A stretch of 64,000 nucleotides of DNA from Leptolyngbya sp. BL0902 (GTDB lineage Bacteria; Cyanobacteriota; Cyanobacteriia; Phormidesmidales; Phormidesmidaceae). Each line of letters begins with the position of its first letter. Positions within the stretch are counted from its first letter, which is position 1. Location: the NCBI RefSeq assembly GCF_016403105.1, contig NZ_CP046155.1, positions 4,149,501-4,213,500 of the forward strand, given 5' to 3'. Under the pieces are notes generated by a model that ran no database searches, was not told the origin of the DNA, and was given only the letters and a program-made list of their open reading frames with translations. Shown one piece after another: positions 119 to 53,443 of this stretch. The position numbers and the translations under genes are program-made.

Positions 119-346
119 GGTAGCAGCACAACAACTGCCTTAAATGTATAGCGAATTTGAGCTAAAAGACAAAAGAACAGCCCCAACCCTGAAATCAGAG
201 TCGGAGCTATTCTACAAACTAGACGGAAATCAAACGAAAATGAGTTGAACGAAATCGAAACAATGAAAGTGAACCACTGAGGATCTCAGCAGTGCCCAGA
301 CCAGCTACTTAGGAATGCCTTCTCACATAGAGACTGATACTTTAGA

Positions 347-524
347 GATGGGTCGATACCGTCGTGAAGAGATGGTTACGTTTCTAGGTATCTAATGCAG
401 GGCTCTCTATCAGGCTAGGGGTAGAAACATCAGTAGCGTGAAGTAGGGCAGGGCTGACGTTGAAGCTATAGACTGAGATGTATCCGAAGTAACAACCTCC
501 TGAAATCAAGAAGACTGAACTTTT
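347..524. repeat. structured repeat unit, copy 1 (candidate ncRNA)
   Basis: This unit shares blocks with copy 2 at 629-802, in the same order and with similar spacing: GATGGGTCGATACCGTCGT, GGTATCTAATGCAG, GCTCTCTA, ACAACCTCCT and ACTGAACT. GATACC (355-360) can pair with GGTATC about 25 bases later. GTTG near the middle can pair with CAAC just before CCTCCT. Conserved pairing with variable loops suggests selection on RNA structure. The transcribed strand is unknown: the plus strand would expose CCTCCT, and the minus strand would read AGGAGGTT. Confidence 0.5.
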
Positions 525-628
525 CAACCATGAACAAAGGCGGTCTATCTCTTCAAGAGAAAAGATGTATCTACAGCCTTCCCAATGCCATGTGAGGGAT
601 TTCCTCAAATAGGTTTCAACTAAGTAAA

Positions 629-802
629 GATGGGTCGATACCGTCGTAAAGGTTGTTGCGTCTCTGGGTATCTAATGCAGAGCTCTCTAGGGATTAGGGG
701 AGGAAATATCAGCCGAGAAACGGAAAGGCTGCGTTGTTGTGCGAGATAGATTCAGACGTTAACGAGATAACAACCTCCTATTTAACGGGGACTGAACTAT
801 TC
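629..802. repeat. structured repeat unit, copy 2 (candidate ncRNA)
   Basis: This is the second member of the pair, 282 bases downstream of copy 1 and in direct orientation. It keeps the GATACC/GGTATC pairing although the intervening loop differs. It also has a longer GTTGTT/AACAAC pairing where copy 1 has GTTG/CAAC, which counts as compensated or extended pairing rather than plain sequence identity. A CAGCC/GGCTG hairpin sits in the middle. CCTCCT follows the last helix as in copy 1. No known RNA family was recognised. Confidence 0.5.
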
Positions 803-1014
803 GATGTGGGAGGGAGGCTTGCCTCACCTCTTGTTATTACCATAGCGCTTTCTAGAACCACTGCTAGGGAATGATACTAAAGTTTATCTTTCGGTTAAGG
901 GTTACTCTCATGGAAGCTAAAGGATGTGTTTAGGATCCCAGAACCTTTGGCAGAGTTCCTTTGGCAGAGTTGGGCTCCACGCCGTTCCCCCTAACTGACT
1001 GGGACAAACAGGGA

Positions 1015-8987: not shown

Positions 8988-9269
8988 TTAATCAATCGCT
9001 GAAATCGTTTGGGCCAGGGCGAAATCTTTTTCCGTCAGGCCACCCGCATCGTGGGTGGTCATTTCAATCACGACCTTATTGTAGGAAATGGAGAGGTCGG
9101 GATGATGGCCTGCGGCCTCAGCGGGTTCGACGAGGCGGTTTACAAAATCCACCGCCGCAATGAAGTTTTTGAAGGTGCGGGTGCAGGTAATTGCCTTGCC
9201 CTTGAGGCTCCAGTCGGGCAGGTCGCTAAGCTTGGCTTGAATGGCATCGGCGCTGAGTAGGGTGGCCAT
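8988..9269 (-). CDS. 4a-hydroxytetrahydrobiopterin dehydratase (pterin carbinolamine dehydratase)
   Basis: A 93-residue PCD/DCoH protein. The active-site block EAAGHHPDLSISYNKV followed by TTHDAGGLTEKD carries the conserved His-His-Pro, the Tyr, the later His and the Asp of the family. The enzyme dehydrates 4a-hydroxytetrahydropterin so the cofactor can be recycled; many bacteria have it without a phenylalanine hydroxylase and its role there is unclear. The start codon is followed upstream by about 330 bases of strongly structured sequence that could be a long leader (see 9330-9612). Confidence 0.93.
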   Translation of the reverse strand: MATLLSADAIQAKLSDLPDWSLKGKAITCTRTFKNFIAAVDFVNRLVEPAEAAGHHPDLSISYNKVVIEMTTHDAGGLTEKDFALAQTISAID

Positions 9270-9329
9270 GGTGGGGTTTCATAACGCTACGCCCTGATCC
9301 TAAAGCATTCCAGCCTAGCGATCCCCGTG

Positions 9330-9612
9330 ACAGCGATGGGGCTAGAGGTACTCACCCAGGCTTTAACGTCTGCCACCCCGTTTAAAAGACTATCCGCCCT
9401 GCCTGGGGAAGAGAAACTCTTCAAAGGCGAGGGCGGTCTAGCTGGATCTTCGGTTAAACCTGACTGCCGGGAGGAACCCTTATCAGCCAGCTTCAGAAGC
9501 TTAGTTCGCTAGGCGAACACTGAGTCTTAGAGAACGGCCCCGGCGCACAGCCGGCTATCGTTAACCTGAAGACCCATACGTTTACTACTCTCTTGCATGG
9601 GCATCACCTCCT
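9330..9612 (-). ncRNA. candidate structured leader or small RNA upstream of the PCD gene
   Basis: Read on the minus strand, this stretch starts with AGGAGGTGAT, a ten-base complement to the usual 3' end of 16S rRNA, and contains several hairpins. They are GTTCGC/GCGAAC (9504-9518), AGCTTC/GAAGCT (9489-9501) and a nested hairpin with CCGCCCT/AGGGCGG (9394-9436) enclosing GAAGAG/CTCTTC (9408-9422). In addition CCCAT pairs with ATGGG between about 9570 and 9600. Such density of stems outside a coding region suggests a functional RNA. No known riboswitch, tmRNA, RNase P or SRP RNA core is present. Direction is inferred from the Shine-Dalgarno and the gene downstream. Confidence 0.4.
9527..9598 (-). 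CDS. possible 23-residue leader peptide
   Basis: A short ORF, MQESSKRMGLQVNDSRLCAG plus three residues, starts at an ATG eight bases after AGGAGG (9607-9612). It ends inside the structured region ahead of the PCD gene. The ribosome-binding site is far better than those of most genes here, which argues for translation. The peptide has no run of one amino acid as in classic attenuators and no membrane segment. It may be a regulatory upstream ORF, or the site may be a coincidence within an RNA gene. Confidence 0.35.
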   Translation of the reverse strand: MQESSKRMGLQVNDSRLCAGAVL

Positions 9613-9761
9613 GAAGGACTAAAGGGTACAATCTCAAGGGTTCTCCTGCTGGACTTGTCAGCATTAGTGGTTAAGGTAGCACAGTCTTTTTGTCTGTGGT
9701 AGAACTTTACCCGTTGTTACGTAAAAAATTAGTCCCAAACCTCATCTATCTTGAAATCAGG

Positions 9762-9866
9762 CTTGGCCCTCACCCCCAGCCCCTCTCCCACGGGGAGAGG
9801 GGAGCTAGAGGGATACTTCAAAGTCCCTCTCCCAATTTGGGAGAGGGATTTAGGGTGAGGGCCAAG
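9762..9866. repeat. palindromic repeat, family A, copy 1
   Basis: A 105-base element bounded by inverted ends CTTGGCCCTCACC and GGGTGAGGGCCAAG. Two inner hairpins are CCCCTCTCCC/GGGAGAGGGG and CCCTCTCCCAA/TTGGGAGAGGG. Relatives lie at 15210-15285 (decayed), 51759-51857, 59427-59557 and 60567-60668, the last two inside a coding region. It carries no gene. It looks like a non-autonomous REP or MITE-type element. Confidence 0.85.
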
Positions 9867-9894
9867 ACAACGCATTTCACCATGGACTTTGTTT

Positions 9895-53371: not shown

Positions 53372-53443
53372 TCCTCAGTAGCTCAGTGGTAGAGCGGTCG
53401 GCTGTTAACCGATTGGTCGTAGGTTCGAATCCTACCTGGGGAG
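53372..53443 (+). tRNA. tRNA-Asn (anticodon GUU)
   Basis: A 72-base cloverleaf without encoded CCA. Acceptor stem TCCTCAG pairs with CTGGGGA, with one T-G pair. The D stem is GCTC/GAGC and the anticodon stem GTCGG/CCGAT frames the loop CTGTTAA, whose anticodon is GTT. The T arm is GTAGG TTCGAAT CCTAC. The discriminator base is G, as expected for tRNA-Asn. No other tRNA was seen in the window. Confidence 0.97.

Follow-up and report, generated by a model that had tools for sequence, protein, structure and literature searches.

The 64,000-nucleotide stretch of Leptolyngbya sp. BL0902 DNA that we analysed (the window) carries near its beginning two similar segments, at about 347-524 and 629-802, which are located between open reading frames (ORFs). 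What are these segments, on which strand are they encoded, and what might they do? A sequence-only reading had taken them for two related tandem units of a candidate undescribed RNA family. The relatedness was borne out, as an alignment of the units over 187 positions showed 72% identity and relatives are conserved in other genomes. By DNA search, 25 of 26 same-genus and 33 of 63 same-family genomes proved to contain relatives, and nine named records were matched in a pattern scan (four in Nodosilinea, one in 'Leptolyngbya', two in Leptolyngbyaceae, one in 'Phormidium' sp. FACHB-1136 and one in a filamentous cyanobacterium). Model R1, made from 33 copies read on the plus strand, matched all 26 genomes of the genus and 44 of the 63 genomes of the family. 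With model R2 (84 copies, plus strand), matches were obtained in 81 of 386 genomes and 47 of 143 genera of a phylum-wide cyanobacterial sample; in two Nostoc-like genera, 13 of 13 and 42 of 53 genomes were positive. Model R3, which represents the minus strand, matched 98 of the 386 genomes and 58 of the 143 genera in the search of cyanobacterial genomes with a new model that the sequence-only reading had suggested, the filters used in these model searches being such that weak matches are lost. None of the 98 genomes positive with R3 belongs to group f20 (1.6-3.0 Mb among the genomes listed).

Genomes possessing the RNA contain one to six copies, some of them in tandem, and most Nostoc-like genomes have one or two. 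Four loci (L154, L168, L090 and L267) carry between two and four copies arranged in tandem, and the members of these arrays diverge widely. The genome from which the window was taken harbors a third, more distant copy at C1:35,699-35,861 (L178).

The units do not match any Rfam 15 family at the gathering score, as the Rfam search proposed along with the sequence-only reading revealed. The sole match in the 64-kb window was a tRNA at 53372, and across a set of 40 related loci the search detected NsiR1, IsrR and a tRNA, none of which overlaps the unit RNA, and nothing else. Even at E<=10, the region 150-1020 gave just four weak matches, all far under their gathering scores; the best one (E 1.3) scored 16.9 bits, where 65 would be needed for gathering.

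Read on the minus strand, the two copies contain the following elements (both copies are training rows of R3, to which the scores refer):

568-736, minus strand: P1-P4 domain of copy 2, the 5' unit of the minus-strand RNA (R3 101.6 bits, E 2e-24)
284-458, minus strand: P1-P4 domain of copy 1, the 3' unit of the minus-strand RNA (R3 89.1 bits, E 3.2e-21)
722-731, minus strand: 5' strand of P1 in copy 2, pairs with 574-582
574-582, minus strand: 3' strand of P1 in copy 2, pairs with 722-731
446-457, minus strand: 5' strand of P1 in copy 1, pairs with 285-298 (-19.1 kcal/mol)
285-298, minus strand: 3' strand of P1 in copy 1, pairs with 446-457
700-707, minus strand: 5' strand of P2 in copy 2, pairs with 598-606
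598-606, minus strand: 3' strand of P2 in copy 2, pairs with 700-707
637-672, minus strand: P4 hairpin of copy 2 (637-642 with 667-672)
355-392, minus strand: P4 hairpin of copy 1 (355-360 with 387-392)
746-800, minus strand: P5 hairpin of copy 2 (746-755 with 792-800), whose loop contains a Shine-Dalgarno-like word

Sequences of the same genus alone reveal P3, P4 and P5. The first consensus fold, based on alignment A2 into which 33 of 36 copies had been taken, comprised just 13 pairs, and its 3' half was devoid of any. In extended sequences, the conserved block UUGGGUGYUGUUG was found to pair with a segment about 60 nt outside the first model. The duplex P1 had a mean energy of -18.2 kcal/mol with its own partner and of -13.9 kcal/mol with permuted partners, and none of 40 permutations was as low; the control with the other flank was itself slightly better with the own sequence (-11.19 versus -10.93, 1 of 40 as low). 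For a wider comparison, eight named rows that were partial or doubtful were dropped from 125 copies, the remaining 117 were thinned to 95, and 72 of these entered alignment A6; A9 contains 70 of the 72 (L120 and L154 were left out). Both are MAFFT alignments in which the pairs were placed by eye.

In the minus orientation, the P1-P4 domain of A9 exhibits 35 pairs with 86.4% of cells paired, and two-sided changes occur in 33 of the 35 pairs over these 70 diverse sequences. Thus, covariation in homologues, on which the sequence-only reading had made its proposal depend, was found. The covariation score was 0.358, compared with 0.215 (sd 0.007) for shuffled and at most 0.145 for slid alignments, values that do not translate into a probability because the placement of the pairs was visual and related sequences enter the count more than once. 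All 15 pairs of P1 and all eight pairs of P2 show changes on both sides. The support for P2 comes from these paired changes and not from its permutation test, which was marginal (-9.0 versus -8.73, 3 of 60 as low; control flank -6.91 versus -6.79, 12 of 60 as low). P4 corresponds to the GATACC/GGTATC helix recognized by the sequence-only reading, and it is real: two-sided changes affect four of its six pairs among 33 copies and all six among the 70 sequences of A9, where 78.2% of its cells are paired. For P5, all nine pairs displayed two-sided changes in an alignment, fitted to the model, of 84 copies from the GTDB family of the window. In Nostoc-like genomes the P5 stems differ (GGCAGAU/AUCUGUC and AACAGC/GCUGUU, by eye).

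Other helices that had been suspected did not hold up. The segments of the CAGCC/GGCTG hairpin in copy 2 (710-714 and 727-731) do exist, but 722-731 pairs with 574-582, some 150 nt away, to form P1, and the local partner is gone in the relative L003 (TCATCC). The GTTG/CAAC and GTTGTT/AACAAC helices are absent from the consensus fold and from the pair counts, in which they had no separate tally. The conserved purine block is one strand of P2. A pseudoknot between this block and CCUCCU (GAGG/CCUC) was rejected, since the own sequences gave -6.5 and permuted ones -6.61 (n=122), and the value was at least as low in 34 of 40 permutations. Altogether, we are confident that the units are tandem copies of a real RNA family encoded on the minus strand, and the idea of an undescribed family is supported by the covariation, by the lack of an Rfam match and by a Shine-Dalgarno-like word not followed by a start codon in 61 of 66 copies. 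Covarying changes in 33 of 35 pairs, matches in 58 of 143 genera and no match in Rfam 15 suggest that well-studied cyanobacteria still hold uncatalogued conserved RNAs. The outcome is an alignment, a strand, an architecture and a set of testable elements, namely P1, P2, the Shine-Dalgarno-like loop, a conserved upstream element and a neighbouring gene, c1.

As the RNA is read from the minus strand, the CCTCCT that had drawn attention to the units becomes AGGAGG, a Shine-Dalgarno-like word inside a hairpin:

774-779, minus strand: AGGAGG (CCTCCT on the plus strand) of copy 2
496-501, minus strand: AGGAGG (CCTCCT on the plus strand) of copy 1

Contrary to the initial description, CCTCCT is not placed directly behind the last helix; its position in copy 2 is within the loop closed by 746-755 and 792-800. 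When the 5' part of the RNA was compared with the complementary sequence of the 16S rRNA tail, the longest common word had a mean length of 6.44 nt, compared to 4.61 nt in letter shuffles (n=125), and was at least 6 nt long in 87 of the 125 copies. The commonest shared words were AGGAGGT (63) and GAGGT (25), while GTGAT, which is not a Shine-Dalgarno core, was the best word in eight. Depending on the clade, the loop reads AGGAGGU, AAGAGGU or AAGGAGU. We also considered a small ORF behind the word and rejected it: 66 of the 72 copies possess the word, and in 61 of these 66 no ATG, GTG or TTG is present at a distance of 4-11 nt. Thus, the Shine-Dalgarno-like word is not an ordinary ribosome binding site. 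In the predicted folds, the word and the entire RNA are equally open (0.40 versus 0.40), and the word is above average in 60 of 125 copies.

Our proposal is that the window encodes two tandem copies of a structured minus-strand RNA with an estimated length of about 270-290 nt per unit, each of which comprises a short 5' hairpin, the hairpin with the Shine-Dalgarno-like word and a closed 3' domain, P1-P4; up to this point the proposal is structural and supported by the computations. By base pairing in trans, the purine-rich loop could bind a CU-rich partner: the 16S rRNA with its anti-Shine-Dalgarno tail, or an anti-Shine-Dalgarno-like sRNA such as Yfr1. P1-P4 might serve as a scaffold that stabilizes the loop or binds a protein, and the RNA might regulate translation or act as a sponge. 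Taken as a whole, with its mechanism included, this explanation is the best we can offer, although we put its chance somewhat below even. Its trans-pairing step, our preferred guess, is rather unlikely when considered separately; the mechanism is weak, and folding predicts no open loop. Against the pairing also speaks that the wording of the loop varies by clade, whereas the 16S tail is not known to vary, and that GTGAT is the best word in 8 of 125 copies. If the loop did act on the ribosome or on Yfr1, this would bear on translation control in cyanobacteria. A wider version, in which a phylum-wide RNA titrates ribosomes or anti-Shine-Dalgarno-like sRNAs through the loop on its P1-P4 scaffold and has been expanded in tandem in some lineages, we regard as improbable; were it true, the RNA would be a global RNA regulator of cyanobacterial translation.

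The alternative that survives best retains the minus-strand RNA and its scaffold, to which a protein would bind or which would form a ribonucleoprotein, while the Shine-Dalgarno-like word would be structural or incidental. It agrees with the two-sided changes throughout P1 and P2 and with a word that is not predicted to be open, but against it the word is kept, in several wordings, and no candidate protein is at hand except for c1, at 13 loci. This explanation is possible, if on balance doubtful, and a scaffold role without Shine-Dalgarno function appears about as likely as trans pairing of the word.

Under our proposal the RNA would usually be a standalone gene, which we consider probable. 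The signals that bear on this in the window are:

833-888, minus strand: region taken to be the promoter, GATAAACTTTAG ... TATGGT (judged by eye to be homologous to a conserved element)
164-213, minus strand: intrinsic terminator-like hairpin with T tail after both units (18 pairs, hairpin 213-174)

By inference from these, one transcript comprising two units would start at about 830 and end with the terminator at 213-164. Counts of upstream elements and terminators were based on 123 of the 125 copies. Upstream of the minus-strand RNA, the core of a conserved element, GTAAAGTTTAGTTGCA, was found in 33 of 123 copies, compared to 0.16% in shuffles. Outside the family of the window (f1) it is present in 32 of 47 copies, inside that family in 1 of 76; the window itself is absent from the 33 matches. 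The element is a possible binding site of a transcription factor. Outside the family of the window, it is situated about 25-30 nt before a -10-like box. A promoter-like site at 898-871 of the window is at chance level (one found versus 1.3 expected). Two terminator-like sites were found in 1-1100, where 0.7 were expected, and the terminator hairpin of the window has counterparts in the two nearest relatives, L002 and L003. Past the 3' end on the minus strand, terminator-like hairpins follow 18.7% of the 123 copies versus 8.7% in shuffled sequences; the respective values for the plus strand are 4.9% and 6.7%. Two observations speak against our proposal: the upstream element is all but missing from the window's family (1 of 76 copies, the window not being the one), and the terminator is present in only 18.7% of copies.

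Leaders of minus-strand genes had also been considered by the sequence-only reading, which was right about the strand. Among 99 loci examined, 71 had a downstream ORF of at least 150 aa, which shared the orientation of the RNA in 40 cases and had the opposite one in 31, a ratio that argues against a general leader; upstream ORFs were oriented similarly (43 same, 34 opposite). All 13 loci that bear the gene c1 (256 aa), which come from five GTDB families (L174:306-1076 and 12 more), have it downstream of the RNA and co-oriented, suggesting a cis or co-transcribed role there. Without these loci the downstream count is 27 same versus 31 opposite. A cis-acting leader, attenuator or riboswitch of the downstream minus-strand gene, ancestrally c1, which was later moved or duplicated, would account for this consistent neighbourhood and for a shortest distance of 18 nt to the next co-oriented ORF. 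Yet it is at odds with the overall orientation counts, with the tandem copies at several loci and with the terminator that, in the window, separates the units from the next minus-strand ORF (start at about 118, by eye). We therefore consider it unlikely as a general account; it may hold beside c1. The c1 protein showed no match above threshold in Pfam, PADLOC or NCBIfam and no PDB relative at E<=1. Alignment A8 comprises 12 of the 13 c1 proteins (L121 was left out), and below threshold these resembled Nuc_deoxyrib_tr (5 of 12 members, best E 0.016), Peptidase_S48 (3 of 12), DUF7588 (1 of 12) and CAP12/TIR (1 of 12), so that a likeness to nucleoside deoxyribosyltransferases and, in one member, to CAP12/TIR was noted.

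The sequence-only reading had favoured the other strand, namely a plus-strand sRNA with an exposed CCUCCU. R1 and R2 were likewise plus-strand models; they detected the family, but the plus-strand reading was overturned by pair statistics and fold energies. A CCUCCU-like word is indeed conserved, and the pairs largely form on the plus strand too (82.6% of cells, score 0.245, for 29 pairs without P4 in an alignment different from A9). We counted isolated non-Watson-Crick positions flanked by Watson-Crick pairs within the helices. In the plus reading of A6 there were 105 A.C, 24 G.T and 40 other mismatches, and in A3 57, 30 and 58, respectively, the others in both alignments being unaccounted for by a strand reading; P4 of A3 alone showed the opposite trend (23 G.T versus 19 A.C). 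Because an A.C mismatch becomes G.U when the opposite strand is read, the minus strand is favoured. A3, A4 and A5 had been fitted to the plus model and are thus biased towards plus. Furthermore, the P1 duplex was stronger on the minus strand in 84 of 125 copies and weaker in 40, and the minimum free energy of the whole domain was lower on the minus strand in 51 of 72 copies and on the plus strand in 21. Paired cells amounted to 81.0% (plus) and 84.7% (minus) for P1, 87.3% and 91.9% for P2, and 77.8% and 89.6% for the outer P3, values that derive from different alignments. In genome G157, which is outside A9, the E-value improved from 1.0e-5 with R2 to 1.1e-16 with R3, which is no test of the strand alone because the two models cover different parts of the RNA. 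Terminators, the upstream element and R3 are weaker indications in the same direction, terminator-like hairpins on the plus strand being no better than shuffled. By these comparisons the minus strand is the favoured one; CCUCC, which characterizes an anti-Shine-Dalgarno sRNA, would then not be on the transcribed strand, and a plus-strand sRNA is very improbable. Least credible of all is a mobile or repeat element with conserved ends in place of a functional RNA: up to six copies per genome and tandem arrays would suit it, but most Nostoc-like genomes carry one or two copies, 33 of 35 pairs show paired changes, and c1 recurs as a neighbour.

A minus-strand RNA in tandem copies remains our reading of the units, which differ from a second region to which they had been likened:

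9527-9598, minus strand: 23-codon ORF behind AGGAGG (CCTCCT 9607-9612), part of a different RNA near 9600

The features on which the supposed common arrangement was based, CCCAT/ATGGG and CACCTCCTGAA, are present, but the likeness is superficial. Run without filters over 20 loci, R2 found no match to this region, its best value (E 0.45) falling on another part of a locus, and homology was dismissed as profile searches in both directions were no better than shuffled. The RNA, which extends over 9372-9650 on the minus strand, folds better on that strand in 32 of 33 sequences. Its region gave a single match in each of the 26 genus genomes and, by blastn, matches in 116 of 386 genomes and 67 of 143 genera; no Rfam match was obtained for 9250-9760 at E<=10. 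Alignment A7 contains 33 of 34 references (L220 was left out; 15 same-genus loci lacking the anchor word were skipped), and in all 33 sequences the minus strand has, after GGAGGUGAUGCCC and thus behind GGAGG, an ORF of 23 codons that begins with AUG and is closed by a stop. In the window the ORF is located at 9598-9527 (MQESSKRMGLQVNDSRLCAGAVL), preceded by an extended Shine-Dalgarno sequence, AGGAGGUGAU. Codon differences (894 synonymous, 2599 nonsynonymous) disclosed no obvious selection on the protein; hence, this RNA may act as RNA. Section 15 of PMC4734099 describes ncl0160 as having 83 homologues and an ORF of 23-25 aa that is provided with a ribosome binding site, and the RNA at 9372-9650 agrees with that description in its ORF (33 of 33), its ribosome binding site and its wide occurrence (116 of 386 genomes). 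It is probably the published ncl0160, matched by description and not by sequence. The units share with ncl0160, as described there, the Shine-Dalgarno word and the wide occurrence, but at 284-830 they have no 23-25 aa ORF and no detectable homology to the ncl0160-like RNA. At 9770-9870, an inverted repeat rich in CCCTC/GAGGG was noted by eye upstream of the ORF at 9889. Recurrent ORF neighbours of the RNA near 9600 are, as we take them to be, pterin dehydratase and nadC or psbA/psbD.

How does the unit RNA compare with known systems? OLE, GOLLD and ROOL are large structured non-coding RNAs of bacteria whose function is not known. The unit RNA is like them in its strong covariation; it differs in that no Rfam 15 model reaches its gathering score over it. 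A published description of the unit RNA was not found in a literature search whose coverage was thin for subscription journals and which did not extend to supplements. Among the sRNAs predicted in Nostoc PCC 7120, Table 1 of PMC4734099, which is devoted to those with homologues in heterocystous strains only, lists 268249f (340 nt), 4261534f (344 nt) and 2462444f (258 nt), of which the first and the last were verified by Northern blotting. They are similar in length to the unit RNA, the comparison being one of length and description and not of sequence, and the unit RNA may be among the sRNAs of similar length in that table.

Yfr1 is, according to section 15 of PMC4734099, a widespread cyanobacterial RNA whose motif, CACUCCUCACACC, is presumably unpaired and resembles an anti-Shine-Dalgarno sequence. 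In the genome of the window, the motif has one exact match, at C1:3382085, outside the window. The loop of the third copy, L178, reads AAGGAGUGAAA, and 7 nt of it are complementary to the motif (by eye). Yfr1 and the unit RNA have in common that they are widespread in cyanobacteria, and the loops of the units are, by eye, partly complementary to CACUCCUCACACC. They differ in that Yfr1, as first described from the marine lineage (PMC4734099), is only 54-57 nt long and opposite in sense.
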